Source of the DNA: Massilia rubra
GTDB taxonomy: Bacteria; Pseudomonadota; Gammaproteobacteria; Burkholderiales; Burkholderiaceae_D
Length of the DNA stretch: 64,000 nt
Direction: 5' to 3'
Assembly: GCF_011682065.1 (NCBI RefSeq)
Contig: NZ_VUYU01000002.1
Location: forward strand, 1 to 64,000
Of this stretch, positions 48,154 to 64,000 are shown in pieces; position 1 is the first letter of the stretch; each line of letters opens with the position of its first letter. A program made the translations under genes and the position numbers. A model generated the notes under the pieces. It did not search any database and was not told the origin of the DNA. It saw only the letters and a list, made by a program, of their open reading frames with translations.

Positions 48154-48168
48154 GCCGCATCGTGCGCG

Positions 48169-50259
48169 TCAGTCGAGCTTTTTGACAAAGCCGACAGCAA
48201 TGCGGCGCGCGACGAAATGATCGAAGCCAGCCTGGCGGAAGGTGCTGGCGTCGGTGCGGTAGCTGCGCTTGGCGCCATCGAACAGATCGCTGGCGCTGAC
48301 GGTCACGCTGAGCGTCTTGCTCAACTGGCGCTTCCAGCTCAGGTTCACGCTGCTGGTCGGTCCCTGCCGGCCGAGCGGTGTGATGGCGGCCGACTGGCCG
48401 TGCGCGTCGAGCGCCACGTCGTCCGCCCCGGCGCTGTAGGCGGCCCGCAGGTTCACATAGCCGGCGATATCGTCCTGGCGCACCGTGCCATGCAGATCGG
48501 GCGTCGACAAGGCCACCCGATACACGCCGCCGTCCACGCCGAAGCGCAGCGCCGCTTCGGGCGTCCAGTCGAGCGAGCCGGTAACGCCGGTCGAACGCGC
48601 CTGCCCACCATTCTGTTTCGACGTCACCAGCACATTGTCGGCAAAACTGCGCGCATCGGCCACCGTATCGCCGCTGGTGCGGTAGAAGGCATTGACGCTG
48701 GCGCTCCACTGCGCCGCCTCGGTGTTGGCGCCGATCTCCCATGAATCGAGGCGCTGCGGTGTGAGGCCGGGATTGCCGCGGCTGAGGTTTTGCGCATCGA
48801 CGTAGGTGCTGAAGGGATTGAGGTCGCGGGGATCGGGCCGTTGCAGGCTGCGGCGGTAATTCAATGTCAGGTCGGTTTTGTCGCTGGCGGCGTACTTCAC
48901 GTGCAGGCTGGGATTGAAGGCTTGCCAACGGCTTCGTTGCACGAGGCCCTGGGCCGGACTGACCCGCAGCGCCATGCGCTCGAGGCGTCCACCCAGCAGC
49001 GCTTCCCAGTTTCCCCGCCTGAGCTGGTCGGTGAGATAGATGGCGCCCAGCGTTGTCGCCACGGCGTAGCCGTTGGTGGTAGCCGGATCGGGCGTTTCGG
49101 CGCCCGTCGAACGATCGACGGCAGCCTGATAGTTATCGAGGTCGTTGACCTCGTCCTGGAGATCGACGCCCATGCCCCACTGGCCGTGCGCGCTGGCGCG
49201 GGTCCAGTCGAGGGTGGCCTGGTTGAGGCGGCGCGCCGACCTGGTGGCGCCGCGACTGTAGCCGGTGGCGCGCTCCGGTTCGACGAAGACGTCGCTGAAC
49301 GACTTGTCGATCAGCCCTGTTGTCGTGCTGCGCTGGACCATGGCCTTGAGCGCGCTGCCTTTGTCCTGGCGGCTGTAACCGAGGCTGGCGCTGTCGTCGG
49401 CCTGCTCGTTGGGCCCGTAGGAGATGCGATGATAGACGCGCCGGCCGGCGCCGTCGCGCGCCACGTTGAGCGTATCGAGCAGGGGCCGCGAGGCGCGCTC
49501 GTTGTATTTCGCCGACAGGGCCAGGCTATCGGTGTCGCTGAGGGCGTAATCGAGGCCCAGCGCCGCGCTGTGGACTTTGCGCCGCACGAAGACCTCGGAC
49601 GTTTGCAGCGTCGCTCCGGTTTGGCCGCTGAGGGGATTATTCCAGTCGACTGCCGACTGCCGGAATTTTTGCGTGCCGTCGCGCCGGTACGCCAGCTTGC
49701 CGTGGACGCTGAGCTGTTTTCTGGTCAGGTCGCCCGACGTGCTCACATTCCACAAGCCATGGTCGGCGGCGCTGGCCTGCATCTGCGCGTGCGCACCCGG
49801 CTTGCGGTTGCGCTTCAGGACGATATTGAGGATCGCGCCGCCATTGGCGTTGTAGGCGGCGGAGGGATTGGTGATCACTTCGATGCTGGCGATATCGGCG
49901 CCGCTCATGGTCTGCAGCGCCACCGCCCGCTCATCGCCCGACATCATCGCCGTCGGCTTGCCGTCTACCAGCACCGTGACCCTGGCGTTGCCCTTGACCG
50001 AGATCTGGCCGTCGGCCGTCACCGCGATCTCGGGTGTCGACTGCAGCACGTCCTGGGCGCTGCCGTTGGCCGCCCTCGGCATGTTGGACACGTCGTACAC
50101 GGTCTTGTCGAGCTTTTTGACGACCGGCGCCTTCTTGCCCGTGACGGTCACCGTCGCCACCTCCGGTTCTTCGGCGCGCGCTTGCGCCGGCAGCGCGACG
50201 AGCCCGAACAGGATCAGGGAGAGGGTTGTCCTGGGCAGGGAGGCTTGATCGAAATGCAT
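48169..50259 (-). CDS. TonB-dependent outer membrane receptor (OMP_b-brl_3 type)
   Basis: A 696-residue outer-membrane receptor. Signal peptide ends near ARA-EE; a TonB-box-like EVATVTVTGKK is followed by the plug domain (VLVDGKPTAMMSGDE; IASIEVITNPSAAYNANGGA) and a beta-barrel. It has no STN domain, unlike the receptor at 38.9-41.3 kb, so it does not use FecIR-type signalling. Ligand unknown. Confidence 0.9.
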   Translation of the reverse strand: MHFDQASLPRTTLSLILFGLVALPAQARAEEPEVATVTVTGKKAPVVKKLDKTVYDVSNMPRAANGSAQDVLQSTPEIAVTADGQISVKGNARVTVLVDGKPTAMMSGDERAVALQTMSGADIASIEVITNPSAAYNANGGAILNIVLKRNRKPGAHAQMQASAADHGLWNVSTSGDLTRKQLSVHGKLAYRRDGTQKFRQSAVDWNNPLSGQTGATLQTSEVFVRRKVHSAALGLDYALSDTDSLALSAKYNERASRPLLDTLNVARDGAGRRVYHRISYGPNEQADDSASLGYSRQDKGSALKAMVQRSTTTGLIDKSFSDVFVEPERATGYSRGATRSARRLNQATLDWTRASAHGQWGMGVDLQDEVNDLDNYQAAVDRSTGAETPDPATTNGYAVATTLGAIYLTDQLRRGNWEALLGGRLERMALRVSPAQGLVQRSRWQAFNPSLHVKYAASDKTDLTLNYRRSLQRPDPRDLNPFSTYVDAQNLSRGNPGLTPQRLDSWEIGANTEAAQWSASVNAFYRTSGDTVADARSFADNVLVTSKQNGGQARSTGVTGSLDWTPEAALRFGVDGGVYRVALSTPDLHGTVRQDDIAGYVNLRAAYSAGADDVALDAHGQSAAITPLGRQGPTSSVNLSWKRQLSKTLSVTVSASDLFDGAKRSYRTDASTFRQAGFDHFVARRIAVGFVKKLD

Positions 50260-50312
50260 GACGACATTTTAACGTTTCTGCGCGGTCAACGGGCGGATGT
50301 TGGATCGAATGC

Positions 50313-50621
50313 CTATAGTTCGCTGGCGTAGCGGCCCGACGGCGGCTCGCGCAAGCAGGCGGCAATCGCGTCCCATCCACCGGAGGCGGCCAGGGTCCCG
50401 ATGTGCGCCTTGTGGGCCTGTTCGCTGTCCCATTGCTCGACCAGCGTGAATACGGCCGGGTCGTCGCTGGCGCAAAAGATGTTTACGCCACGGCAGCCGG
50501 CAACGCTGGGCAGGTCGCGCTTGACGCCGTTGAGGATCGCGCGCAGCCCGGATGCCGCCTCGGGCCGGGTGGTGAAGGTGATGATAAAGGTGGTGCCTGT
50601 CATGGTTGCGTCGCTTTGCAT
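50313..50621 (-). CDS. Antibiotic biosynthesis monooxygenase (ABM/YgiN-like) family protein
   Basis: About 102 residues of the ferredoxin-like ABM fold: FIITFTTRPEAASGLRAIL, then VFTLVEQWDSEQAHKAHI. Some members oxidise quinols or polyketides, others degrade heme or have no known activity. Start 50621 or the in-frame ATG 50603; neither has a good ribosome site. It sits downstream of the AraC gene in the same direction. Confidence 0.8.
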   Translation of the reverse strand: MQSDATMTGTTFIITFTTRPEAASGLRAILNGVKRDLPSVAGCRGVNIFCASDDPAVFTLVEQWDSEQAHKAHIGTLAASGGWDAIAACLREPPSGRYASEL

Positions 50622-50700
50622 AGTGGGGAATGCGGCCGTGCTTCGGCCGTGTGCATACGATAGGCGCTCGCGCGCCGCGCCGCCAGCGCCCCTCCTGCGT

Positions 50701-51618
50701 CTATATTGACTGTGGCTGCGAACTTGCGAGCTGGCGGGCATACTGCGCCGGCGGCGCGCCGTAGCGGCGCTTGAATTCGCGCGTAAAGTGCGCGGCGCTG
50801 TCGAAGCCTGTCAGGGCGGCCACCTCGCCGGCACGCCTGCCGCCGGCCAGCAGCAGCGCGCGCGCCGCGTCGAGGCGCGTATTGCGCAAAAAATGCATCG
50901 GCGCCAGCCCGGCCACCTCGCGGAAGGTGTGGGCGAAGTGCGAGGGGCTCATCGCCACCGCGCCGGCCAGTTCGGCAATGTCCAGCGGACGGCGGAAGTG
51001 CTGCTGTATCAGCTGCATCGCCTGGTGGATGCGGGCGGCCGAGCGCTTGATGGCGGCGGCGTCGCGGATGGCGCTTGCCGCCGCGGACCTGAGCAGGCGC
51101 ACGATGATTTCTTCGACGATGAGCGGGGCGATGGTGGCGCGGTCGATGGCGTGGTCGGTCGCCGGCAGCAGCCGCGTGAAGGCGTCGAGCACGCGCTCGT
51201 CGACCGGCGCGACATAGTTCGGGCTCGCCTGCGCGTCCGGGGCGGGAGCGGCGTCGGCCAGCGCGACGAAGGTCTTCACCAGCAGGTCCGGCGCCAGGTC
51301 CATGTGGATCGCGAGGTAGGGCCGGCCCGCACTGGCCTCGACCACGGTGCCTTCGCAGCGTGTTTCGGCGCCCAGCACGAGGCAGCTCATGTCATCGTAG
51401 GCGAGCGTGATCGCGCCCAGGCGGGCGCTCTTGCGGCCCTGGAGCACGATGACGACGCCCGGCGCCAGCGTCTGGGTTTTGTCGTAGCGCAGCGGGGTCG
51501 AAAAGCGGTAGTAGCGCAAGCCCGGCCAGATCGAATCGGTGCGCCCTTCGTTCACGGCGCGTGCGGCGACCATCTCGCGCAGGCGCGCCAGGGGCGTTGA
51601 AACGGCGTCGGTATTCAC
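50701..51618 (-). CDS. AraC family transcriptional regulator
   Basis: A 305-residue regulator. N-terminal AraC_N cupin-like domain (TLAPGVVIVLQGRKSARLG) and two C-terminal helix-turn-helix units (LDIAELAGAVAMSPSHFAHTF and AGEVAALTGFDSAAHFTREF). The start GTG at 51618 overlaps the stop of the ECF41 gene (GTGA), so translation of the two regulators is coupled. Target genes unknown; the neighbours (monooxygenase, decarboxylase) are candidates. Confidence 0.88.
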   Translation of the reverse strand: MNTDAVSTPLARLREMVAARAVNEGRTDSIWPGLRYYRFSTPLRYDKTQTLAPGVVIVLQGRKSARLGAITLAYDDMSCLVLGAETRCEGTVVEASAGRPYLAIHMDLAPDLLVKTFVALADAAPAPDAQASPNYVAPVDERVLDAFTRLLPATDHAIDRATIAPLIVEEIIVRLLRSAAASAIRDAAAIKRSAARIHQAMQLIQQHFRRPLDIAELAGAVAMSPSHFAHTFREVAGLAPMHFLRNTRLDAARALLLAGGRRAGEVAALTGFDSAAHFTREFKRRYGAPPAQYARQLASSQPQSI

Positions 51619-52484
51619 GCTGCGCGCACCAGTTTGTCGGGATTGCGCACCACGTAGATGGCGCTGATTTTGCCATCGTCCATCTCGAACGACATGGTCG
51701 AATCGAGCTTGCCGTCGACCAGGCGCAGCAGGCCAGGCTGGCCGTTGATGGTGGCATGCTCGAACGTCGTCGCAGCGCCGTACTTGCGCGCCATGCTTTC
51801 GTAGAAGCGGGCGATCTTGTCGGCCCCGCGCACCACGTTGATGGTGGCCGAGACCTTGCCGCCGCCGTCGGCGCGGAAGGTGGCGTCCGGCGCGAACAGC
51901 TGCGCCAGCTGCGCGCGCTCGCCGCTTTGCGCGGCCGTCACGAAGCGTTCCAGCAAGGCCATGTGCGTTTCGGCGCTGACCGAAAAGCGCGGCTTGTCGG
52001 CGCGCACCCGTTCGCGCGCGCGGTGCAGCAGCTGGCGGCAGGCCGCTTCGGTCTTGCCGACGGCGCTGGCGATGTCGGCGTAGTCGCAGTCGAATACCTC
52101 GTGCAGCAGGAACACCGCGCGTTCCTCGGGACCGAGGCGCTCGAGCATCAGCATGAAGGCCATCGAGATGTCGCCGGCCAGTTCCAGGCGCGACTCGGGC
52201 AGGTCGGCGGCGCGGGTGACGATCGGTTCGGCCAGCCACGGGCCGATGTAGGCGTCGCGGTCAAGCATGGCGCTGCGCAAACGGTCGATGCACAGGCGCG
52301 TGACGACGGTGACCAGCCAGGCGTCGCTGCTCGCCAGCGTGGCGCGGCTGTCGCTGGCGTTCCAGCGCAGCCACGCGTCCTGCACGGCGTCGTCGGCGTC
52401 GGCGCGCGAGCCGAGCATGCGGTAGGCAATGCCGAACAGGCGCCCACGGACCTGGTGAAACTGGGTGGTGAAGGTGTCGTTCAT
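51615..52484 (-). CDS. sigJ: ECF41-group sigma factor (SigJ-like) with SnoaL-like C-terminal extension
   Basis: A 289-residue ECF sigma factor. Region 2 (AYRMLGSRADADDAVQDAWLRW) and region 4 (CDYADIASAVGKTEAACRQLLHRA) are followed by about 100 extra residues of SnoaL/NTF2 type, with the hallmark DGGGKV (in FRADGGGKVSA). This extension is known in the ECF41 group to act as a built-in regulator instead of a separate anti-sigma factor. The divergent carboxymuconolactone-decarboxylase gene has the matching promoter. Confidence 0.93.
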   Translation of the reverse strand: MNDTFTTQFHQVRGRLFGIAYRMLGSRADADDAVQDAWLRWNASDSRATLASSDAWLVTVVTRLCIDRLRSAMLDRDAYIGPWLAEPIVTRAADLPESRLELAGDISMAFMLMLERLGPEERAVFLLHEVFDCDYADIASAVGKTEAACRQLLHRARERVRADKPRFSVSAETHMALLERFVTAAQSGERAQLAQLFAPDATFRADGGGKVSATINVVRGADKIARFYESMARKYGAATTFEHATINGQPGLLRLVDGKLDSTMSFEMDDGKISAIYVVRNPDKLVRAA

Positions 52485-52500
52485 TCTTTTTCGGGAAAGC

Positions 52501-52527
52501 TGTCACAAACGTTGCGACAGGTTCGTC
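52501..52527 (+). promoter_or_regulatory. ECF41 target promoter
   Basis: TGTCACA (52501-52507), exactly 16 bp, CGTC (52524-52527). This is the published ECF41 consensus (TGTCACA-N16-CGTC). It lies about 48 bp upstream of the decarboxylase start and in the gap shared with the sigma factor gene. Confidence 0.9.
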
Positions 52528-52574
52528 TAATGATTGTAAGGCCAGACAATCAATCTCACCAAAAAGGAATCAGC

Positions 52575-53009
52575 ATGGAACGCATCAATTTTATGACCGC
52601 CTCGCCGAACGCCATCAAGGCCTGGATGGCGCTCGAGCAGTATATCGCCACGTCGAGCATCGACAAGCCGCTGGCCGAACTGGTGCGCCTGCGCAGTTCG
52701 CAGATCAATGGCTGCGCGTTTTGCGTGGACATGCACGCGACCGATGCGGCCAATGGCGGCGAGACCGCACGGCGCCTGCATGCGGTGTCGGTATGGCGCG
52801 AGACGCCGTTCTTCACGCCGCGCGAACGGGCCGCGCTGGCGTGGACCGAGACCATGACGCGCCTGGCGCAGCAGCCGGACACCGGCGAGAGCTACGCGGC
52901 GCTGGCAGCGCAGTTCAGCGCGGAAGAGATGGTTGATCTGACGCTGTTGATTTCGACGATCAATGGATGGAACCGCATGGCGGTGGGGTTTGCCAAGATG
53001 CCTGAATAG
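52575..53009 (+). CDS. Carboxymuconolactone decarboxylase/AhpD-like protein
   Basis: A 144-residue protein of the CMD/AhpD fold with the redox motif CAFCVDMH (Cys-x-x-Cys then His), as in alkylhydroperoxidase partner proteins. AAAAAGGA precedes the ATG at 52575. It is the typical ECF41 partner class and is transcribed from the ECF41 promoter. Role in peroxide or reactive-species defence is inferred from the family. Confidence 0.92.
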   Translation: MERINFMTASPNAIKAWMALEQYIATSSIDKPLAELVRLRSSQINGCAFCVDMHATDAANGGETARRLHAVSVWRETPFFTPRERAALAWTETMTRLAQQPDTGESYAALAAQFSAEEMVDLTLLISTINGWNRMAVGFAKMPE

Positions 53010-53270: not shown

Positions 53271-53684
53271 TCATCCTGGTTGGTGGCACACTGCTTCAAT
53301 GTTGTTGCCTTCTAAATCAATGACAAAGGCACCATAGTAGTTAGGGTGATAGTCCGGGCGGAGGCCAGGGGCGCCATTGTCTTTTCCTCCGGCGGTGATC
53401 GCTGCAAGGTAAAAAGCATCCACTTGCGCACGATCCTCTGCTCGCCATGCCAGGTGGCAGCCGGTAGTCGCTGATGGGCCCTCGTATGGTGATGGGCCAT
53501 CGATGAACCATACATCGGCTTTTTTGCCGTCAGGCTCAGAGGCGTCAGGGTAAGCAAACCCCAACATGTTCGCGCCGTAGTTGCCTTCGAAGCATACGCT
53601 GTAGCCCAATGGCGCAAGTGCCGCGCTGTAAAACGCTTTAGCACGACCAATATCGGTCACGCGGAAAGTCATGTGGTCAAGCAT
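53271..53684 (-). CDS. VOC (glyoxalase/bleomycin-resistance) family protein
   Basis: A 137-residue protein with the VOC fold: MLDHMTFRVTDIGRAKAFYSAALAPLGYSV at the start and DLEGNNIEAVCH at the end, with metal-ligand-like His4 and Glu near the C-terminus. Codon use is less GC-rich than the neighbours. It is enclosed by the ~47-bp inverted repeats, so it may be cargo of that element. Substrate unknown. Confidence 0.88.
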   Translation of the reverse strand: MLDHMTFRVTDIGRAKAFYSAALAPLGYSVCFEGNYGANMLGFAYPDASEPDGKKADVWFIDGPSPYEGPSATTGCHLAWRAEDRAQVDAFYLAAITAGGKDNGAPGLRPDYHPNYYGAFVIDLEGNNIEAVCHQPG

Positions 53685-54335: not shown

Positions 54336-54581
54336 TCACCACTCGGGCGGGCGATCGCGGCGCCTGCGGGCGCGGCTGACCAGCATGACAATGATGTAGC
54401 CGCTCAAGGCGAGCAGCAGCAATATGCTGATGGCAATGAGCGGCATCGGAAGTTTGTCGGCGCCGGGATTGTCGCGCAGCGGCACGATAATCCCGAAATA
54501 GATACCGCTGAACAAACCTCCCAGACCAAAAATGCTGCCGAGAATGATTCCCAGCAGGCTGGCGCGTGATTTGGACGACAT
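54336..54581 (-). CDS. Small two-helix membrane protein at the end of the TOMM operon
   Basis: An 81-residue protein. Helix 1 (about 8-31, LLGIILGSIFGLGGLFSGIY) and helix 2 (about 47-68) are followed by an Arg-rich tail. A textbook AAGGAG ribosome site precedes the ATG at 54581. It begins 11 bp after the second permease. By position it could be an immunity or accessory protein of the exported peptide; there is no Cys/Ser/Thr-rich core, so it is not a precursor. Confidence 0.75.
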   Translation of the reverse strand: MSSKSRASLLGIILGSIFGLGGLFSGIYFGIIVPLRDNPGADKLPMPLIAISILLLLALSGYIIVMLVSRARRRRDRPPEW

Positions 54582-54592
54582 GGCGATTCTCC

Positions 54593-55792
54593 TTAACGTG
54601 GGCGATCCTGGGACGCACGCTGCGCCGGTAGCCAGGCGAAGGTGCAGGCGCCGACCGCGGCGCCCATGATCAGGGTCGGCACCACGCCCGAGGGCGACGC
54701 GGGCAAACCGATGCTGATCGCGCCCGACGGCAGCAGGCTTTGCAGCTGCAAATTGTGGCAAAGCAAGGCGTACAGCAGCAGCGCCAGGCCGGCCGCGAGA
54801 ATGCCGATCGCACATCCTTCGGCGAGTTCTCCGAGGCGCACTGCGAGCGGCAGGTAGCCAAGCTGCAGCACGATCTGGCGCACCCTGTCGCGCTCGATCT
54901 CCAGGGCCAGGGCGATCGTATAGATGCCGAAGCCGGTGCAGGTTACCGTCAATACCTGAAAGGCGATCCAGAATTTGTTCAGTTGCGACTGAAGGTGGGC
55001 CACGAAGCGGCCGCCATAGTCGTTCAGTCGCAGCAGGTCGACGCGGATACCTTCGACTTGCTCGCTCAGGCGGCGCACCTCGGCCAGTTGGACGGGATCG
55101 AGCGTCATGCTGATGGAGCTGACAATATCGCTGACCTCGAAGTGCTGCTGCAAGGCCGGCAAGGTACTGTACATCTCCACCTCCCGGCTCACGCCCGCAC
55201 GTTGCGCGACCCCGACGACGCGCCACTCGACGTGCCCCAGTTTCAGCACGGGGCCGGCCTTGCGCCCTGCAATCCAGGCGTCCAGCGCAGGGCTCAGCAG
55301 CAGCTCGCGCCGGCCCGGCAGGGGCAAGCGTCCTTCCATCAAGGTCAGCCCGGCCAGGCCGCCGGCGTCATCGGCCGGCAAGCCGCGCATCAGGGTGGGC
55401 ACCCGATCCCCATCCCGCTCGCCCAGCACGATGTCGGCAGGCAGGACCAGCGCCGCGTGCAGCGCTTTGCCGCGCAAGGCCGGCGAGGCCGAAAAGCCGG
55501 TGCGCAGCTGTTCGTAGGCGGAAAGCGGCAGGAAGCTGCGCGCTTCCGTGCCCGCGCCGGCCGCCAGCATCAGATAGGCGTTTGCGGGCGCCGCCGGCTT
55601 GGCCTGGTCGAGCGCGTCCGACAGGTTCATTCCCGTGACAAACGTCAGGGCGCTGGCGCAGATGCTGATCATGACCAGGGCCAGGCGCAGCGGGCTGCGG
55701 CGGTAGCTGCGCAGCCAGAGCCCGAACATCATGGGAGTCTGACGCAGGGAGGAGGTCAACATGGCGGATCCGGACATGGCGGTGGCGCTCAA
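54593..55792 (-). CDS. FtsX-like ABC transporter permease B
   Basis: A 399-residue inner-membrane protein. One helix near the N-terminus (about 37-57), a large extracytoplasmic MacB-type domain, and three C-terminal helices (about 275-300, 325-350 and 370-390) give the FtsX/MacB permease layout without a fused ATPase. Its ATG overlaps the stop of permease A (ATGA). Confidence 0.9.
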   Translation of the reverse strand: MSATAMSGSAMLTSSLRQTPMMFGLWLRSYRRSPLRLALVMISICASALTFVTGMNLSDALDQAKPAAPANAYLMLAAGAGTEARSFLPLSAYEQLRTGFSASPALRGKALHAALVLPADIVLGERDGDRVPTLMRGLPADDAGGLAGLTLMEGRLPLPGRRELLLSPALDAWIAGRKAGPVLKLGHVEWRVVGVAQRAGVSREVEMYSTLPALQQHFEVSDIVSSISMTLDPVQLAEVRRLSEQVEGIRVDLLRLNDYGGRFVAHLQSQLNKFWIAFQVLTVTCTGFGIYTIALALEIERDRVRQIVLQLGYLPLAVRLGELAEGCAIGILAAGLALLLYALLCHNLQLQSLLPSGAISIGLPASPSGVVPTLIMGAAVGACTFAWLPAQRASQDRPR

Positions 55793-56916
55793 TCGAGGGT
55801 GTCGCTGAACAGGTCATTGACGTCAAGGCGGGCGATCACGGAGCTCACCGCGGTCCAGGCCGACAGCGCGACCAGGGTGCCGGCCGCCGCCGCCGCCTGC
55901 AGCGCTGCCGCCGGCACTTCGATGCGCAGCCAGAGCAGGTTGTCGAACAGGTAGCTGCCGGTCCCGAACGCCAGCACGAAGCCGCCCGCGCCGATCAGCA
56001 GGCCGGCAGCGAGCGCCAGGCGCATTGCCTGGAACAGCAAGGGAAGCTTGCGCTGTCCGACCACCAGCAACAGCGCCAGGCTGGTCCGGTAATGAAGGGC
56101 AAGCATGTTGCTGCACAGTGCAGGCAGCAACAGCGCTGCCGCCAGGGTCATGCAAAAGGCGATATACACCAGCTGGCGCAGGTCGATCAGGTCGTTCATG
56201 AAACCGGATGCGGCCGGCAGGAAATCGGTGCTGCGGGTAGCCGGGGTGTCGTGGGCAAACAGGGTGTCGAGCGCGCGCCGCGCCTTGGCCTTGTCCACGT
56301 GCTCGCGCAGGCGCACGTGAAAACTTGCGACCACCGCGCGATAGGTGGGCAGGGCGAGGTCGGCGAAATCACGCCCGAGCATGACGCAGGTCGTGCATTT
56401 CAATTCATTGTCGGCGCCGAAGGTCCCGGCGATGTAGAACTCCTGATTGTTTTCGGCGTCGCCCGAAAACAGGCGCGCGGCGACCATATTGCCGACCGCA
56501 AGCTGCTGTTTTTCCAGCAGGGCGGCGCTGACCAGTACGGCGTCGCGCCGTTGCTGCCAGCGCGCAATGGTGGCGCTGTCCGCCCCGAGGCGGGGAAAGG
56601 TGGCGGCAACCTGGTCCTTGTCGACGATCACCCCGGTGAATACTTGCCGCTCATTTGCCAGGAACAGGGCGACCGAACTGTACTCGGTCACGCTGGCGAC
56701 CCCCGGCCAAGCCTGGATGCGCGCGATATAGGTACGCGGCAGCAGGTTCGATGGGGAGAGGGCGTTGCTCACTGTGAGCAAGCGGTCGTCCGTCTTGACA
56801 AAGCGCGGATGCCAGTAGGAATTGCCAGCAAGCAAAGCGGTACACGTGGCCAACAGCACGGCCAGGGTTGCCAGGCTGGCGGCAAGGGCGCGGTGGCGAA
56901 GGAGCAGGCCGATCAT
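55789..56916 (-). CDS. FtsX-like ABC transporter permease A
   Basis: A 375-residue permease of the same FtsX type: N-terminal helix (about 10-30), MacB-like periplasmic domain (including FYIAGTFGADNELKCTTCVM), three C-terminal helices from about 255. It is clearly different in sequence from permease B, so the exporter is likely a heterodimer. ATGA overlaps join it to the ATPase gene before it and permease B after it. Confidence 0.9.
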   Translation of the reverse strand: MIGLLLRHRALAASLATLAVLLATCTALLAGNSYWHPRFVKTDDRLLTVSNALSPSNLLPRTYIARIQAWPGVASVTEYSSVALFLANERQVFTGVIVDKDQVAATFPRLGADSATIARWQQRRDAVLVSAALLEKQQLAVGNMVAARLFSGDAENNQEFYIAGTFGADNELKCTTCVMLGRDFADLALPTYRAVVASFHVRLREHVDKAKARRALDTLFAHDTPATRSTDFLPAASGFMNDLIDLRQLVYIAFCMTLAAALLLPALCSNMLALHYRTSLALLLVVGQRKLPLLFQAMRLALAAGLLIGAGGFVLAFGTGSYLFDNLLWLRIEVPAAALQAAAAAGTLVALSAWTAVSSVIARLDVNDLFSDTLD

Positions 56917-57641
56917 GGCGCAAGTCCCTGGAGCGCGCCGTTATGCAGATACAGGCGCCGCGTGGCCTGGCGCGCGAGCGACTCGTTATGCGTGACGAGC
57001 ACCACTGCGCGCCGATGCGCCTGGGCGAAGGTGCAGAGCAACTCGAATATCTGCTGTCCCGCCTCCTCTCCCAGGCTCCCGGTGGGTTCGTCGCACAGCA
57101 GGAGCGACGGCGCCCCGACGATGGCGCGCGCAATGGCCACCCGTTGCTGCTCGCCGCCGGAAAGCGTGGCGGGCATGGCCATGCGCTTCGGCTCCAGGCC
57201 CATCAGCGCCAGCGCCGCCTGCGCCTGGCGCCGCCTGTGCTGGCGCGCCATGCGCCGCAGCTTGAGGGGCAGTTCGACATTTTCCTGGGCAGTCAGGAAG
57301 GGCACCAGGTTGAAGCGTTGAAAGACGAAGCCGATGCTGCGCGCGCGCAGTTGCGCCAGTTGGCGGCCATTGCGAAAGTCGACCATTTCACCGCCGCAGC
57401 ACAGGGTGCCGGCGTCGGGCTTTTCCAGGGTGCCGAGGATCTTGAGCAGCGTGCTCTTGCCGGCGCCCGACGGGGCCGTGATCGCCAGCACCTCGCCCAG
57501 GCCGACGCTGAGCTGCACGGCGCCCAGGATGGTCTCCCTGCCGGCGGCCGACTGGAACGACTTGCAGATGCCGTGCGCCTGCATGAACGGATGGGCGGCC
57601 TGCGTGCCCTGGGAGGGGGTGTCGATGGTGGCGTGGTTCAT
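56913..57641 (-). CDS. ABC transporter ATPase (MacB/LolD type)
   Basis: A 242-residue nucleotide-binding subunit. Walker A APSGAGKSTLLK, signature LSGGEQQR, Walker B LLLCDEPTGSL and the H-loop VLVTHN are intact. It follows the HlyD-like adaptor with an ATGA overlap and energises the two permeases downstream. The MacB-like set suggests export of a peptide from periplasm or inner membrane. Confidence 0.95.
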   Translation of the reverse strand: MNHATIDTPSQGTQAAHPFMQAHGICKSFQSAAGRETILGAVQLSVGLGEVLAITAPSGAGKSTLLKILGTLEKPDAGTLCCGGEMVDFRNGRQLAQLRARSIGFVFQRFNLVPFLTAQENVELPLKLRRMARQHRRRQAQAALALMGLEPKRMAMPATLSGGEQQRVAIARAIVGAPSLLLCDEPTGSLGEEAGQQIFELLCTFAQAHRRAVVLVTHNESLARQATRRLYLHNGALQGLAP

Positions 57642-58720
57642 GGGTTCTGGTGGGTGAGGAGGGGAGGCGTTGCGCAACGGCTGTCGCCGGCGCCGACGAA
57701 CTGCACGTCGGCGCTCGTTTCAAGGATGGGCAACACGCGGATCGGGTGTAGCGGGACCAGGATGGCGTTGACCGCGCCGCGCTGGCGGTCGGCGGTGCTG
57801 CCGATCCGGTCGAGCCGGAACGGCAGCGCGTGAATCTGGTCCGGCTGCGCCAGCGACGACACCAGCGCGCAACCGGCGCGCTGCAATTGCGGAAGCAAGC
57901 GCTCCTGTACCGACACATGCACTTCGAGGGTGGCGGGATTGAGCAGGGACAGCAAGCCGCTGCGGATATAGCTGCCGCCGTTGGTGGGCGAGACGACTTC
58001 GCCGACGCGCGCGTTCTGCGCCACCACCACGCCGGAAAACGGGGCGCGGATGGCGTACTCGCGCTGGGTTTCGCGAAAGCCGTCCAGGTTGGCGAGGGCG
58101 TCGCCGATATTGCTGCGTGAGCGGCTCAGTTCCAGTACGGCCTGCTCGACCCGCAGGTCGGCTTCGGACATGGCCTTGCGGGTGCCGAAGCCGCGCGCCA
58201 TCAGGCTGGACTGGCGCTGCTGTTCGTCGCGCGCCTGGCGCACGTCGAGCGCGGCTTTCTGCGATGCGAGCCGCTCGGCGGCCAGCCGCTGTTCCGCCGA
58301 GCGGACATCGTTGTCGCCCCGCATATTGCTCAGTTCTACCAGGAGCTCTCCCTTCTTGACCGTACTGCCTTCGCTGACCCGTATCGTCTTTACCCGCGCC
58401 AGGACCGTGGCGGAGATCTGCACCATTTCGTGGGCGGAGAAAAAGCCGGACATCTTCAGGCCGGCGCCAGCGGGATCGCTCGCGGCGGGCGGGGCGGGGC
58501 GGGGGGGCGCGGGGACGGCCGGCGCGACGGGCGCCCCCGCGCGCTGCCAGTATCCCGCAGCGGCGATGACGGCGACGGCCAGCGCCGCCGCCCACGCGAG
58601 CGCGCGCCTGGAGGGATGGCCGGCCGGTGCTTCCTGCGCGCTGTGCTGCACGAGGCTGTGCAAGGCTTGCTGCTGCTCCGATCGCGCCTGGTCGTCATGG
58701 CGGTTTGGTGTTGTTTGCAT
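57638..58720 (-). CDS. HlyD/MacA-type periplasmic adaptor
   Basis: A 360-residue membrane fusion protein. One N-terminal helix (about 40-58), a Pro/Ala-rich linker, lipoyl half-domains (LARVKTIRVSEGSTVKKGELLVEL and IRAPFSGVVVAQNARVGEVV) around a coiled coil (about 135-215), and a beta-barrel region. It would link the ABC permeases to an outer-membrane channel, which is not encoded here. It starts 9 bp after the M50-like gene. Confidence 0.92.
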   Translation of the reverse strand: MQTTPNRHDDQARSEQQQALHSLVQHSAQEAPAGHPSRRALAWAAALAVAVIAAAGYWQRAGAPVAPAVPAPPRPAPPAASDPAGAGLKMSGFFSAHEMVQISATVLARVKTIRVSEGSTVKKGELLVELSNMRGDNDVRSAEQRLAAERLASQKAALDVRQARDEQQRQSSLMARGFGTRKAMSEADLRVEQAVLELSRSRSNIGDALANLDGFRETQREYAIRAPFSGVVVAQNARVGEVVSPTNGGSYIRSGLLSLLNPATLEVHVSVQERLLPQLQRAGCALVSSLAQPDQIHALPFRLDRIGSTADRQRGAVNAILVPLHPIRVLPILETSADVQFVGAGDSRCATPPLLTHQNP

Positions 58721-58729
58721 AAGTGGCCT

Positions 58730-59362
58730 TTACACGATGCCGGGACGGGAGTGCAGGAGAAGCTTGACCGCCATCAGCAGCACGACCCCGGCGTAGACGA
58801 GCGACACGGCGCCGTACACGGCTGCCGGCCAACGCCAGCGGCACAACAGGCGGAACTGGCGGATGCCCTGTTGCATGTCGGCGCGTGTCAGCATGCAGCA
58901 GTTTGGCAATCCGACCAGCAAGCTGACGACAAACAGTCCCTGGAGCGTGGCTGCCTGCGCAGGCGGCGCCAGGGTTGTCGCGATGGCCAGGCACAGCGAA
59001 CAGAGCATGTCCAGCAGCGGGCCGGCGCTGAGGATCAAAAAGCGCGTATCGCTGCGTTCGAGCGAGGCCTGGGCCGGGGCGTGAAAGGCCGGCAGCGCGG
59101 CGGACCAACGAATCCGGCCGTCGCGCACGCCGCACCAGCGGGCGGCTGTGGCGTGCGCCAGCTCATGCACGGCGATCCATGCCAGCAAGCCGGCAAGCGC
59201 CACCACCGGCACCGCGCTGCGTACCAGGGCGCCAAGGGCGATACGGGGCAGTTCGGCCAGGGGCAACTGCAGGAAAAACGCCAGCGACAGCGTGATGTGC
59301 CAGGCGCTTAACAAGGCCAGGACCAGCCAGGCGGCATACAAACGCAAGCGCATGGAAGTCAT
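58730..59362 (-). CDS. M50-like membrane metallopeptidase
   Basis: A 210-residue protein with about five membrane helices. The zinc motif HELAH (His66, Glu67, His70) lies in a helix, and a downstream SAGPLLDML resembles the third-ligand region of site-2-type proteases. In peptide clusters such proteins are proposed to trim leader or signal parts. The ATG at 59362 overlaps the stop of the dehydrogenase fusion gene by 4 bp, which fixes the start. Confidence 0.85.
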   Translation of the reverse strand: MTSMRLRLYAAWLVLALLSAWHITLSLAFFLQLPLAELPRIALGALVRSAVPVVALAGLLAWIAVHELAHATAARWCGVRDGRIRWSAALPAFHAPAQASLERSDTRFLILSAGPLLDMLCSLCLAIATTLAPPAQAATLQGLFVVSLLVGLPNCCMLTRADMQQGIRQFRLLCRWRWPAAVYGAVSLVYAGVVLLMAVKLLLHSRPGIV

Positions 59363-61503
59363 TGCGTGGTCTCCGGGGCGTTGCCGAACGTGAACGCGAA
59401 CAGGTTGAACAGGTGAGCGCACGATGGCGGGAGATGGGTCAGCAAGTCGCTTTCGACCGCCGCACCGGCCGGACAGCCGCGCAGGCGCCGGGACTCGATG
59501 GCCAGCCAGAAGCTGCCGATCCATTGGCCGATCAAGACCAGCAACTGGTCATGGCCGGCCGGCCCGTGCGTATGGAGCACGCGCGACAGGTCGGCCAGCA
59601 TGAAAAGACGGCCCGCCGCCTGGCTGAGATTGCGCTGGGATAGCAGCTCCTGGTCCGGTCCGTCGCGCGACAGGGTACTGCCGGGGCACGGGAGCAAGTT
59701 GCCCTCGTCGGCCCACTGGTAGGTGACGCACACGCCGGCGCGTTCGATCACGAGGATTGGGTGCAGGCTCGACATTAAGGCGGCGGCCGCACGGTCGCCT
59801 GGCCGGGGGCGGGATTGCCTCAGCAGCGCGGCAATGTCCGGCACGGCGAGGTCGAGTTCGGAACAATCGCGCGCCGCGCTGCGTTGGCGCAGCAAGCGAT
59901 CGAATCGGTCCCATTCGATGGGTGCGGCGGAAACGCAAGGCAGATCGGCGCGCCACGCGAAGTTGTAGTAATGACGGCGGTGCTCGACGATGTCGCGCAG
60001 CCAGGGCGCTTCGAACGGCTGGCAGGTCGGTGTCAGCGCATGGCCGGCCGCCAACGCGGCAGCCTGGAGAAAGGCGGCGCCGAAGCCGCTGTCGAGCAGG
60101 CCGAGGCTGAGCCCGAAATCGCCGTATTTTTGCCGGATTTTCTCGGTGTTTGCCAGGCACACGATGGCATACTCGGCCTGGCCGGCGCCATCGAGGGACG
60201 CTTCGGCAAGGGGCTCGAGCCAGTCGACGACGGGCACGTAGCGCATCAGGCGGGTACGCCGCCTCGACTGGTCGCGCCACACGACCATGCACTCGGCGGC
60301 CCCCAGGTTGCCGCCGCTCGGACAGATTCGCCGCCGGTTGCCGGCGGCATCGCTCCAATAGCCGAAGGCGCGCGTGACCAGTTGCAGCAGCAAGCGCTGC
60401 GGCGGGCTGGCGCTGGCCATCGAAATGACCTTGCCGGCATCGCCATGCGGTAGCGGAAACTGCTTGGCAGCGAGGATATTCTTCGGCGCATAATGTTGTT
60501 CATAACTTTTCACCCCGATCATGCGGCGCGGAGGAACCGCGGCCCGGCTGTGCCGTTCCAGCCGCTGCAACGATGCGGGTCTGTCCACTGCGGCAATCGC
60601 GTGGGGCGCGTCGCCGAGTGCATGCAGGCGCGCCACGGGATGGGTGCTGCAGCCGAGATGCCCGTTGTCGAGCTGGTAGCGAATGAAATTGTTCAGCAGC
60701 GAGAAGGGGGTGCTGCCGCTGTTGAGCAGCACAAGGGCATTGCACACGATCCCCGCCCATAGCGGCAGGGTGGCGGCCTGACAAGCGTCGTCGACGGCGC
60801 CGGCGGCGGCGCGGTAGCACGCCGTCGTGCAGCAACCGCGGTTCGCGAGCAGCGGCCCGACATCGAGCGACAGCGCGCGCACGGACACCAGCAACACCGC
60901 GGCGCCGGCGGCCTGCAAGCGGGCCACTTGCTTGTCGAGCCCGGTCGTGCCGTCGAGAACGGCGATGGTCATGTGGCAGGGCGGCGCGCCCGGCATGCAG
61001 TCGACCACGTTCAAGCCGCATCCTCGCAGCGCCAGGGACAGCTCGCGGCGGAAGCGGCCGCTCCCAAGCATGCTGACCGGACGCAGGAAGGCGGCGGCCG
61101 CGTCGCTGCGGCGCTGGTGGATGCGGGTCTGGTTCATGACCTTGGCGAGGAAAGCGCCGGTGTGCGCATCGAGCGCCGCCGGCGTGGGCGCGGCCGGCTG
61201 TTCGAGCAAGCCGTGCTGCTGAAGCCAGCACAACAGGCGCTTGCGTTCGTACGCGCCCGCCAGATGATCGGCGCACAGTTCCTCCACGGTGCGCGTGCCG
61301 TCGAGCTGGCGCAGGAATGCCAGCACGTCCAGGGCCCCGAAACGGCGCCCGACGACCGGCGCGCCCAGGCCGCCGACCAACATCAGGCGCGTATCGTCGA
61401 TGGCGGCCACCGCCACCTCGTCCAGCAAGCGTGGCTGGCTGGGAAACGCGTCGTCGAGTTCGGCGTCTCCGGTGAGCGCGAAGCGGGGAGTCAGGCTAGC
61501 CAT
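59359..61503 (-). CDS. Fusion protein: RRE/E1-like cyclodehydratase partner plus SagB-type dehydrogenase
   Basis: A 714-residue protein. Residues about 25-102 resemble a PqqD/RRE leader-binding winged helix (LRQLDGTRTVEELCAD). Residues about 140-310 look like the ThiF/E1-like domain of TOMM cyclodehydratases (VGPLLANRGCCTTACYRA; LDNGHLGCSTHPVARLHA). From about 365 there is a SagB/McbC-type FMN nitroreductase (RICPSGGNLGAAE, KYGDFGLSLGLLDSGFGAAF), followed by a second, weaker nitroreductase-like half to the end. It would bind the precursor, help form azolines and oxidise them to azoles. Overlaps the gene before it by 13 bp. Confidence 0.85.
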   Translation of the reverse strand: MASLTPRFALTGDAELDDAFPSQPRLLDEVAVAAIDDTRLMLVGGLGAPVVGRRFGALDVLAFLRQLDGTRTVEELCADHLAGAYERKRLLCWLQQHGLLEQPAAPTPAALDAHTGAFLAKVMNQTRIHQRRSDAAAAFLRPVSMLGSGRFRRELSLALRGCGLNVVDCMPGAPPCHMTIAVLDGTTGLDKQVARLQAAGAAVLLVSVRALSLDVGPLLANRGCCTTACYRAAAGAVDDACQAATLPLWAGIVCNALVLLNSGSTPFSLLNNFIRYQLDNGHLGCSTHPVARLHALGDAPHAIAAVDRPASLQRLERHSRAAVPPRRMIGVKSYEQHYAPKNILAAKQFPLPHGDAGKVISMASASPPQRLLLQLVTRAFGYWSDAAGNRRRICPSGGNLGAAECMVVWRDQSRRRTRLMRYVPVVDWLEPLAEASLDGAGQAEYAIVCLANTEKIRQKYGDFGLSLGLLDSGFGAAFLQAAALAAGHALTPTCQPFEAPWLRDIVEHRRHYYNFAWRADLPCVSAAPIEWDRFDRLLRQRSAARDCSELDLAVPDIAALLRQSRPRPGDRAAAALMSSLHPILVIERAGVCVTYQWADEGNLLPCPGSTLSRDGPDQELLSQRNLSQAAGRLFMLADLSRVLHTHGPAGHDQLLVLIGQWIGSFWLAIESRRLRGCPAGAAVESDLLTHLPPSCAHLFNLFAFTFGNAPETTQ

Positions 61504-62111
61504 GTGCCCAGTTCCCCATGAAACGCGGCAAAACGCTGCGGCCCGGCGCAGGTGGTGCGGCTCGGGCTACGGCAGGTACACCCGTGCACGGGCATGATGG
61601 CGCTGCTGACAATCGCGCCACTGGCGCTGTCGATCGCCAGGCTGTCGGTGGGCGCCAGCAGGCCGCGTTCCTGAAGCAGGCACAATTGCGCCGTCAGGTC
61701 GACCAGGCTGGCCGGATAAGCGCGGAACTCCGCGGCTTCGGACTGGGCCGCCAGTTTGGCCAGGAAAAACAGGGTTTCGGCGCCATACGGCTCTGGCGGC
61801 TGGCTCAGCAGGCGTTTGCAAAAGCACTGCGCGCAGATGCCATCGGGCGAGCAGGGCGGCGCCAGCAGCACGTGCCGCTCGAACGCGAAGCAGGTAAACA
61901 GGTTGGCGCAAGGGGCGAGGCGCTGCGCGGCTTCCTGCATCAGGTCGAGTCGCAAGGAGGAGAACAGGGCAAACACCTGGCCTTCCAGCGGCCCGGTGCA
62001 GGCGCGCCACTGCGCGGGCTCGAGCATGGTTGCCGCTTGCCCGGACTGGCGGGGGGCAATGCAGCCTGCCACGCTTCGTCCGAACTCGCCGCTGTAGATA
62101 AAGGTAGACAT
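61491..62111 (-). CDS. Cys-rich E1-like/TOMM accessory protein
   Basis: A 206-residue protein with a putative zinc site formed by CAQCFC (Cys93, Cys96, Cys98) and HGCTC (Cys178, Cys180), in the order typical of the C-terminal zinc site of E1-like TOMM proteins. LLAPPCSPDGICAQC resembles the P-G-C-x-x-C segment of those proteins. The ATG at 62111 lies one base after the YcaO stop. It probably works with YcaO, but it is short and its exact family is uncertain. Confidence 0.7.
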   Translation of the reverse strand: MSTFIYSGEFGRSVAGCIAPRQSGQAATMLEPAQWRACTGPLEGQVFALFSSLRLDLMQEAAQRLAPCANLFTCFAFERHVLLAPPCSPDGICAQCFCKRLLSQPPEPYGAETLFFLAKLAAQSEAAEFRAYPASLVDLTAQLCLLQERGLLAPTDSLAIDSASGAIVSSAIMPVHGCTCRSPSRTTCAGPQRFAAFHGELGTWLA

Positions 62112-62112
62112 G

Positions 62113-63438
62113 TCAGGCAAACGGTTGTGGAAAAGGGTTGATCGTCATGGCCGCGCCGGGCGCGATGTCGCCGCGATCCATCAGGAAGGCGTGGAATTGC
62201 GCCAGCCGCGCGGCGCCGAGGTAGCGCGCGGTGGTGATCGTACTCATGGGCATCAGGCTGGGAACCAGGGCGCGAAAACCACGCAGGCCGACCTGGCGCA
62301 GCTCGTCGGAGCTCAGTTCCAGCAGCAGGATCTCGTGGCCCAGCGCTTGTGCGCGTTGTTTCAGCCAGGCCAGCTGGGCGCCTGCATGACTGTGGTCCGG
62401 CAATGCCTGTCCGGCTTGCAGGTCGGAAAAGCGCACCCGGTCGCTCCCGTCGAGGAAATCGAACGCATGGGCGCGTTCGGGCCGGGCCATGTACACCGCG
62501 CCATCTTCGATGTCCGCGCATTGCTCGGCGCTTGCGGGAACGTTCAGCTGGCCGGTGTCCAGGATGGAACTCAAGCTTGCAACCTCGCGCAAGGCCTTGT
62601 AGCACGCGTCCGCGAAGCTGAAACTGCTGGCGCAGGTGACAAGGTTGGCCGCATGCGGGTGGCACGAACGATGCCGCCGCAGATACACGGTCGGCAAGCC
62701 GACATCGGTGGTGGCGTCGAACAGCATGTATTCATCTTCCTGTTCGAGCAAGGTGCGCACGGCGGGCGCGAAGTGCGCCAGGTCGGTGCTGTCGAAGGCG
62801 ATCTGCGGCAGCCGCCTGCGCAGCAGCCACGTCAGTGCTATCGCATCCCTTTCCAGCACTTCCGCAGTCGCGGTCACCAGGGCGGTGGCGGGATCGTGGT
62901 GGACTGCGGTGCCGGTGGAAATCGCGGCCCAGAATCGTTCGCTGGTCCACGCGCGCGGATACAAGTGACTCATCACGACGGGCACGTATTTCTTGTCGCC
63001 GGTGTTCAAGCTCACAGCCTCGACCCAGCGCATCGGCTCGTCCGGGTCGAAGGGGTGGAAGGGCTGGTCCGGCAAGGCCAGTTCGTCCTCGGAAAAGCTC
63101 GGCAGGGTGGGCCAGTTGAACGCGTCCTTGCCCAGTTCGTTGGCGCTGGCGACCATATATTCATGCTCCAGCAACATGCACGAGCTATACCGCTCCGCTG
63201 CTTCGCACACCGCCTTCAGGCGCGCCAGCTCGGGGTCGACGTCGGTGCCGCAGCCGCTGAGATACGTGTTCCAGAGGGGCGCCCCAGTGTATGTGCGCGC
63301 TCCCTGGAGTAGTGCGCTCAGGTTGCCGGCATGGCAGCCGTAGCTGTGGAAAATTCGGTCGGAAAAATTGGACAGGACGATGGACCGGGGCATGCTCAAC
63401 ACCCCGCCGAACGCCCCGCACAAGGCTTCAAAGCGCAT
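62113..63438 (-). CDS. YcaO cyclodehydratase (TOMM azoline-forming)
   Basis: A 441-residue YcaO-domain enzyme that uses ATP to activate peptide amides so that Cys, Ser or Thr side chains cyclise to azolines. The ATP-site blocks are SGCGTDVDPELARLKAVCEA with following AERYSS, and STGTAVHHDPATALVTATAE with VLERDAI. The C-terminus ends NPFPQPFA, a PxPxP motif, which marks true azoline-forming YcaO proteins. It overlaps the gene before it by 11 bp and precedes the Cys-rich partner. Confidence 0.95.
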   Translation of the reverse strand: MRFEALCGAFGGVLSMPRSIVLSNFSDRIFHSYGCHAGNLSALLQGARTYTGAPLWNTYLSGCGTDVDPELARLKAVCEAAERYSSCMLLEHEYMVASANELGKDAFNWPTLPSFSEDELALPDQPFHPFDPDEPMRWVEAVSLNTGDKKYVPVVMSHLYPRAWTSERFWAAISTGTAVHHDPATALVTATAEVLERDAIALTWLLRRRLPQIAFDSTDLAHFAPAVRTLLEQEDEYMLFDATTDVGLPTVYLRRHRSCHPHAANLVTCASSFSFADACYKALREVASLSSILDTGQLNVPASAEQCADIEDGAVYMARPERAHAFDFLDGSDRVRFSDLQAGQALPDHSHAGAQLAWLKQRAQALGHEILLLELSSDELRQVGLRGFRALVPSLMPMSTITTARYLGAARLAQFHAFLMDRGDIAPGAAMTINPFPQPFA

Positions 63439-64000
63439 GCTGCCGCCTCCAGTGCTGTTGCAGGGCGCGCAGTGCGTGCGGCGGGAGCGCCAGCAGGATC
63501 AGATAGTCCGACTCGGATCCGTCAAATCCCAGCTGGTTCAGCAGCAAGCGCAGCACGTCGAACCGGCTCGTTCCCTCGCCGCTGGCGGCCAAACCGTGCC
63601 TGAGTGCGCCTATCAGGTGATGAAACGTGGGCAGCGCGGCAGCTGGCAAGTTGGCGCCGCGCACCAGCAGGCCATCACGCTCCAGCGCGTCGGATTGGGC
63701 CAGCATCTGCCCGACCAGGGCGCCCGGCAGCGTGTTGGCAAACACCAGCGGCGAGAGCATGGCGGCCGGCGGCGGGCAGCGCATGTCCAGTGCCGCCGCC
63801 ATGGCGGCCGGCAAGGCCGTCTTCAAGAGCGCCGGGTCGGCCACCAGCAGGGGCGGCAGATGGTCGTTTAGCGCGACCAAGGTGGCGGCAGTGCGCGCAT
63901 CGGCGTGCGTTGCCAGCCACAGCGCGGCGTGCGCGGGTTGGCACCGCACGAGCGTTTGATGGGCGCCGCTGTCGCGCGCCGGACCCCGGCCGAGCAGTTC
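63428..64000 (-). CDS. C-terminal part of an unidentified protein, first visible gene of the TOMM operon
   Basis: The frame is open from the window edge to the stop at 63428, at least 190 residues, so the true start lies beyond 64000. It is Ala/Leu-rich with no signal peptide or clear motif in view; segments such as LSPLVFANTLPGALVGQMLA and SDYLILLALPPHALRALQQHW suggest an all-helical domain. It overlaps the YcaO start by 11 bp. I do not recognise it. Confidence 0.7.
   Translation of the reverse strand, partial: ELLGRGPARDSGAHQTLVRCQPAHAALWLATHADARTAATLVALNDHLPPLLVADPALLKTALPAAMAAALDMRCPPPAAMLSPLVFANTLPGALVGQMLAQSDALERDGLLVRGANLPAAALPTFHHLIGALRHGLAASGEGTSRFDVLRLLLNQLGFDGSESDYLILLALPPHALRALQQHWRRQHAL

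Follow-up and report, generated by a model that had tools for sequence, protein, structure and literature searches.

Does the beginning of contig NZ_VUYU01000002.1 of Massilia rubra encode a complete pathway for an exported azole peptide and, if so, of which type? The window analyzed here (64,000 nucleotides, nt) is the start of this 537,552-base contig of a 7.57-Mb genome; the sequence past 64000 was also examined. The first-pass annotation had described in the window a head-to-tail series of genes, from a YcaO to a small membrane protein, and proposed a single exported azole peptide as the product. All these genes are indeed present on the minus strand between 54336 and 63438, with open frames and in the order proposed. 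The operon, however, does not end at 64000 but is completed by four further genes upstream, which encode a 284-amino acid (aa) protein, a permease of the ABC-2 type, a DrrA-like ATPase of the ATP-binding cassette (ABC) superfamily and a 78-aa precursor peptide. Judged by gene content, the resulting array of 13 genes, all on the minus strand with the precursor first and an 81-aa small protein last, is very probably a complete operon for a linear azole-containing peptide (LAP; thiazole/oxazole-modified microcin, TOMM) of a type related to thiopeptides, equipped with an M50 protease of its own and a pair of ABC exporters.

The precursor gene (66435-66671) has a GTG start with GGAG ahead of it and ends 3 kb upstream of the start of the YcaO gene, in the region beyond 64000 where a Cys/Ser/Thr-rich frame of 40-100 aa had been expected. 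Its product consists of a leader (residues ~1-40), a core (~41-68) with the sequence FNTAGTAGTFGTAGGCIGTVGSFGSANC, which is an X-Gly-(Thr/Ser/Cys) repeat with Cys, Ser or Thr at 9 of its 28 positions, and a variable tail (69-78). The peptide exceeds the cut-off of the "thiocillin family RiPP" (ribosomally synthesized and post-translationally modified peptide) model NF033482 (30.2 against 25 bits), and none of ten versions with a shuffled core and the original leader and tail matches the model. A non-exhaustive scan of 399 genomes of the order, in which part of the first-look candidates was scored (17 of 61 in the M. rubra genome, where the precursor was the sole match reported), yielded five matches at E ≤ 0.001 and passed the cut-off in the M. 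rubra genome only. An open reading frame (ORF) on the plus strand that overlaps the precursor gene (66364-66570) was taken to be a shadow frame.

Homologs of the precursor are present in four other clusters, found in Massilia mucilaginosa (genome G002; NZ_WHJH01000035.1, locus L018), in another genus of Oxalobacteraceae (G017; locus L010), in a member of the Sphingomonadales (L019) and in the genome G108 (locus L015). Between M. rubra and M. mucilaginosa, the 28 core codons show five silent and no amino acid-changing base differences, compared with 5 of 40 amino acids changed in the leader and 6 of 10 in the tail, which indicates constraint on the core and a seemingly free tail. The nine precursor copies from the five clusters all carry X-Gly-(Thr/Ser/Cys) repeats, six of them pass the NF033482 cut-off, and the motif H-(S/A)-(F/Y)-D is discernible by eye in the leader of all except the G108 copy. 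In G108 (L015, 11170-12955 and 14052-14264), the precursor-like frame is placed after the M50 gene, and the 714-aa homolog is split between two frames.

The YcaO cyclodehydratase (D protein; 62113-63438) scores above the curated cut-off of the azole-forming SagD type (TIGR03604, 229.0 against 219.25 bits) and ends in NPFPQPFA, which bears out the PxPxP terminus reported in the first-pass annotation. Its relatives in the PDB number four in all, LynD, TruD and MusD being the best. The model of S12/RimO-partner proteins gives no match to this YcaO, and the model of McrA thioamidation proteins gives 37.1 of the 365 bits required. In a tree of 20 rows, with the 572-aa YcaO of the same genome as the outgroup, the sister branch is G108 (100/99), followed by G017 together with Sphingomonadales (97/94) and an adjoining Paracoccus sequence (91/90, not starred); further outward are five actinobacterial rows (96/94) and then Anoxybacillus with the Massilia genome G004 (98/95), although the outer order is unsure because several branches are long. 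A TfuA-adjacent YcaO falls outside the group formed by the YcaOs of the related clusters. Hence the placement among non-azoline YcaOs that was considered as a possible refutation did not materialize, and identities as a thioamidation or RimO-partner YcaO were rejected on the family scores and the tree.

The next gene (61491-62120, with a possible ATG start at 62111) encodes a 209-aa Cys-rich protein, correctly recognized at first as E1-like: its CxxC and HGCTC motifs are conserved in three aligned homologs, and its assignment as the C protein of the TOMM class comes through the TIGR03882 scores of homologs (cut-off 36.9), which are above the threshold in G017 (37.3) and Paracoccus (57.7) and below it in L019 (20.9). 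The 714-aa protein (59359-61503) had been described as a fusion of leader-binding, E1-like and SagB parts. The SagB part is borne out by profile comparison, with an hhalign match across residues 10-495 to a 567-aa SagB protein of Anoxybacillus amylolyticus (E = 1.9e-31); what the description lacked is a second dehydrogenase half at about 532-684, which matches the 223-aa nitroreductase encoded next to that SagB protein (E = 2.7e-9). A Streptomyces dehydrogenase pair matches the 714-aa protein as well, more weakly. From these alignments, the fusion is best read as two joined dehydrogenase genes that are separate, albeit adjacent, in Anoxybacillus and Streptomyces. Its assignment as a SagB-type dehydrogenase likewise comes through homology, that is, the hhalign matches and the TIGR03605 score of the Paracoccus homolog (88.3, above the cut-off of 78.4; the G017 and L019 homologs score 43, below it). 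The putative leader-binding region at the N-terminus was assigned by eye and by analogy with fusions of RiPP recognition elements (RREs) to dehydrogenases; in the accessible part of PMC7470986, such fusions are noted in several (n = 14) cases as possibly vestigial.

The genes for a protease and a heteromeric MacB-like exporter that had been proposed are real. The M50-like membrane protease (58730-59362; ORF open from 59524) contains a HELAH motif and marginally passes PF02163 (28.1 against 27.2); its G017 homolog resembles the maturation proteases of daptides and YydH/LiaK, far below the cut-offs (daptide_HExxH, 32.9 bits against 300). Downstream are genes for an HlyD-type membrane fusion protein (57638-58720; PF13437, 42.4 against 22.2), an ABC ATPase (56913-57677, likely start 57641; PF00005, 108.1 against 25) and two permeases. 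Neither permease has a weighty family match, permease 1 (55789-56916) having none and permease 2 (54593-55792) a weak one to MacB (E = 0.23); they are denoted FtsX-type on the basis of their hydrophobic segments (11-29, 249-267 and 291-324 in permease 1, where a long loop separates the first from the second; 37-55, 327-345 and 370-388 in permease 2), position and homologs (a Paracoccus gene annotated as FtsX-like for permease 1; genes in G017, L019 and Paracoccus for permease 2). In the MacB exporter, the ATPase and the FtsX domain share one homodimeric chain; here the ATPase is separate and the permeases are two and different, and together with HlyD these proteins form a split MacB-like set. 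It is not the only exporter: the DrrA-like ATPase (65351-66310, alternative starts 66295 or 66289; Walker A, LSAGQ and Walker B motifs; TIGR01188, 163.8 bits, below the cut-off of 312.45) and the ABC-2 type permease (64286-65338; PF01061, 60.5 against 26.9) constitute, as judged from their domains, a second, DrrAB-like exporter. The array ends with the 81-aa protein (54336-54581), which has two hydrophobic segments, is 92% identical to its M. mucilaginosa counterpart and 28% to that of G108 (E = 3e-5), and has no match in G017 or L019. The last gene of the operons in G017 (L010, 17994-18968) and L019 (19330-20316) instead encodes a JmjC/cupin protein, which might be a further modifying enzyme.

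The genes are tightly packed, in part as first described: ATGA overlaps join the 714-aa and M50 genes (given the M50 start at 59362), HlyD and the ATPase (given the ATPase start at 57641), and the ATPase and permease 1. The overlap between the two permease genes is, however, TTGA, further overlaps are of 11, 8 and 13 nt, and the other junctions are gaps of 3-12 nt (11 nt between permease 2 and the small-protein gene), except for 124 nt after the precursor gene. A scan for promoters upstream of the precursor found three (1.4 expected), and one for terminators past the operon found two, one of them within the last gene (1.1 expected).

We infer the following route to the product, as well as any antibacterial role it may have, from these genes and their homologs. 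The N-terminal region of the 714-aa protein would bind the precursor leader, and the YcaO together with the 209-aa E1-like protein would use ATP to convert Thr, Ser and Cys, mostly after Gly, to (methyl)oxazolines and thiazolines. Oxidation of these azolines to azoles would fall to the SagB and nitroreductase halves, in the manner reported for SulDEFG of the sulfomycin pathway but with the pair on one chain, giving nine rings in the core at most. The M50 protease could remove the leader at the membrane, and the product would be exported either by the HlyD/ATPase/FtsX set or by the DrrAB-like pair, the other set probably serving in self-protection. The azole peptide originally envisaged gains support from the precursor and from the SagD-type score and tree position of the YcaO.

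Several points weigh against this reading. The product is a prediction from the genes. The 209-aa protein itself has no family match, and the 714-aa protein scores 18.5 with TIGR03605, far under the cut-off. AlphaFold models of the 714-aa protein (three-row alignment, predicted local distance difference test, pLDDT, 32.4) and of the M. mucilaginosa homolog of the 284-aa protein (two rows, pLDDT 40.9) are too poor for use, so that the domains lack confirmation at the fold level, and profile searches of the PDB with the 714-aa and 209-aa alignments matched nothing. Three of the nine precursor copies (the second of G017, the second of L019 and that of G108) fall below the NF033482 cut-off, inspection of the leader by eye revealed no double-glycine site, and the role of the M50 protease in leader cutting is a proposal by analogy. 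The 284-aa protein could contribute another modification. Finally, the resemblance to SulDEFG derives from the published description, not from the Sul sequences.

Comparison with the related clusters indicates that the operon is more than a chance assembly: in M. mucilaginosa, all 13 genes have counterparts of 85-94% identity in the same order. The order is nearly kept in G017 and L019, where direct BLAST matches cover 10 and 9 of the 13 proteins, respectively, at ~22-40% identity, and the counterparts of the M50 and 284-aa proteins (in L019 also of permease 2) were placed by position, alignment or via G017. Related clusters carry one, two or four precursors. An uncharacterized cluster on plasmid pAMI4 of Paracoccus aminophilus (NC_022049.1) also retains, with changes, much of the order: ATPase, ABC-2 permease, YcaO, TOMM leader-binding protein, a 780-aa fused nitroreductase, site-2 protease, ATPase and two FtsX-type permeases. 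It differs in the presence of LanB_N where Massilia has HlyD, of a TIGR03891 protein in the position of the 284-aa protein and, between the precursor and the ATPase, of genes for a second YcaO with TfuA, for MoaD and for MoeB; its core is also different. Such a mixture (YcaO, LanB_N, TIGR03891, YcaO with TfuA, MoaD with MoeB) hints at an azole/dehydro/thioamide hybrid product in Paracoccus.

The cluster is rare. The 714-aa protein was found in 3 of 60 relatives (M. rubra counted) and, in scans that scored about two candidates per genome and so give lower bounds, in at least 6 of 392 genomes of the family, four of which were judged to carry the cluster (M. rubra, G002, G017 and G108), and in at least 1 of 398 genomes of the phylum, that one being M. 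rubra. Among the weak matches of the family search, G193 matched no cluster protein, and the cluster of G004, which contains a LanB_C gene, was set aside as a different one. A scan of species genomes with the YcaO alignment (two patterns) gave 124 pattern matches and six relatives, of which L018 and L019 have this gene order and the other four match some proteins only; it did not recover G017 or G108, which points to members missed or outside the genomes covered. Viral contigs gave 39 pattern matches and no relatives. The YcaO of G017 is closer to that of the Sphingomonadales (72% identity) than to that of Massilia (38%), which suggests transfer between classes.

Linear azol(in)e peptides such as microcin B17 have, like the Massilia precursor, Gly-preceded Ser and Cys in the core. 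To our knowledge, their clusters lack an M50 protease and a split FtsX exporter and have a different dehydrogenase layout. Discrete C and D proteins and ABC export are also shared with the Massilia cluster (PMC4603692), and the accessible part of that article describes no family with this gene set. According to the available portion of PMC10634744, SulF of sulfomycin is among the RRE, E1/Ocin-ThiF-like and dehydrogenase proteins, and SulE, SulD and SulG complete the complexes that form azoles from Cys, Thr and Ser. Compared by this description only, SulDEFG resembles the Massilia set in combining a YcaO, an E1-like protein, an RRE/E1/dehydrogenase protein and a second dehydrogenase; in Massilia, the dehydrogenase halves are on one chain, the cluster has a single YcaO, and a dehydratase was not found. 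The A. amylolyticus plasmid cluster (NZ_CP015439.1), in which a "thiocillin family RiPP" is annotated, has a YcaO with 34% identity and the two dehydrogenases that align to both halves of the 714-aa protein, but these are encoded by separate genes, a lantibiotic dehydratase is present, and the core sequences are different. The initial view that the domain set matches no characterized cluster is accordingly right in part: the SulDEFG precedent and the annotated Paracoccus relative speak against it. By its genes, the set appears to be complete and rarely seen, with a described precedent for ring formation from which the one-chain double dehydrogenase differs. Among the literature matches listed, from a search with subscription journals mostly outside its scope, no paper was recognized as describing this cluster.

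Could the product nevertheless go beyond azoles? The 284-aa protein (63428..64000 in the window, the gene continuing to 64282) might be a far-diverged enzyme of the LanB_C/pyridine synthase type that introduces dehydro residues or a macrocycle. The Paracoccus protein in its position is a "thiopeptide-type" (LanB_C-like) TIGR03891 protein (91.9 against 48.45 bits), the precursor scores as thiocillin-like, the profile of the 284-aa protein has a weak C-terminal hhalign match (E = 0.059), and a Foldseek search with the low-confidence model of its M. mucilaginosa homolog ranks PbtD, a pyridine synthase, seventh (E = 0.03). Yet unrelated folds rank above PbtD, and none of the 1033 Foldseek matches reaches E = 0.001; the 284-aa protein has no family match, and its five aligned homologs (13-25% identity beyond the genus) have none of weight. 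PF14028 (LanB_C) has no match in the M. rubra genome, in a search that had no positive control; the model scores 134 bits on one gene of Massilia G004. LanB_N (PF04738) matches none of the five cluster genomes, one of unstated completeness, so that the cluster is not a standard thiopeptide one; both positive records (those of Paracoccus and Anoxybacillus, at 29.6 and 29.4 bits) are barely above the cut-off of 28, and a diverged copy might therefore escape. On balance, a thiopeptide-like product seems unlikely. The G004 cluster (L016) is itself of a different, thiopeptide type, in which a 638-aa nitroreductase-type protein accompanies YcaO and LanB_C; a thiopeptide-type cluster with OsmC/YcaO core genes is described for Massilia antibiotica in the accessible part of PMC7988111.

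YcaOs elsewhere make thioamides or macroamidines, and the second, TfuA-adjacent YcaO of the Paracoccus relative could point to such a backbone change. For Massilia we regard it as extremely improbable given the PxPxP terminus, E1-like partner and dehydrogenase halves, the SagD-type score and tree position of the YcaO, and the lack of a TfuA-like gene among the cluster genes in family scans. Decay or silence of the operon, with no product made, would fit its rare and patchy occurrence, the empty site in a relative (see below) and the state of the 714-aa homolog in G108, the start and remainder of which are in different frames; set against the open frames, the full-length counterparts in M. mucilaginosa and the unchanged core, this too is very unlikely.

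The linear azole-peptide operon remains the preferred reading and would provide a compact, complete and testable system, with an identified precursor, in an environmental genus. Its one-chain double dehydrogenase could be a simple handle on the cooperation of paired oxidases, and the related clusters, differing in the number of their precursors, show which core positions are retained. More speculatively, these clusters might represent a distinct Gram-negative family of azole peptides with X-Gly-(Thr/Ser/Cys) tripeptide repeats. Its ancestry would lie in pathways of the thiopeptide type, with loss of the dehydratase, retention of a LanB_C-like protein for a new purpose and fusion of two oxidases into one chain, and transfer would have spread it between beta- and alphaproteobacteria; this is a possibility that we put forward tentatively. 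An origin of the 284-aa protein in a thiopeptide enzyme would place the clusters along a gradient, the Paracoccus one, which has LanB_N, being thiopeptide-like and the Massilia one azole-only.

The cluster sits in a ~14.7-kb segment (53010-67669), as indicated by its absence between joined flanks in the relative G012, where a match to 48001-53008 is followed, after ~90 bases, by a match to 67670-69967; G012 has no match to the 714-aa protein. Stretches of 7.5 kb in G016 and G009 also lack the segment, with other sequence or order between the flanks. The G+C content of the island equals that of the flanks (0.642 compared with 0.641 and 0.640), and its ends share repeats of 7-10 bases only. The left flank is the same in M. 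mucilaginosa, where no more than ~2 kb separates it from the cluster; fragments of a Dyp-peroxidase gene (L018, 12881-13063) are found between the two, with a full-length copy on another contig. Within the M. rubra island, past the operon, a gene of the glyoxalase/bleomycin resistance superfamily is located at 53271-53684.

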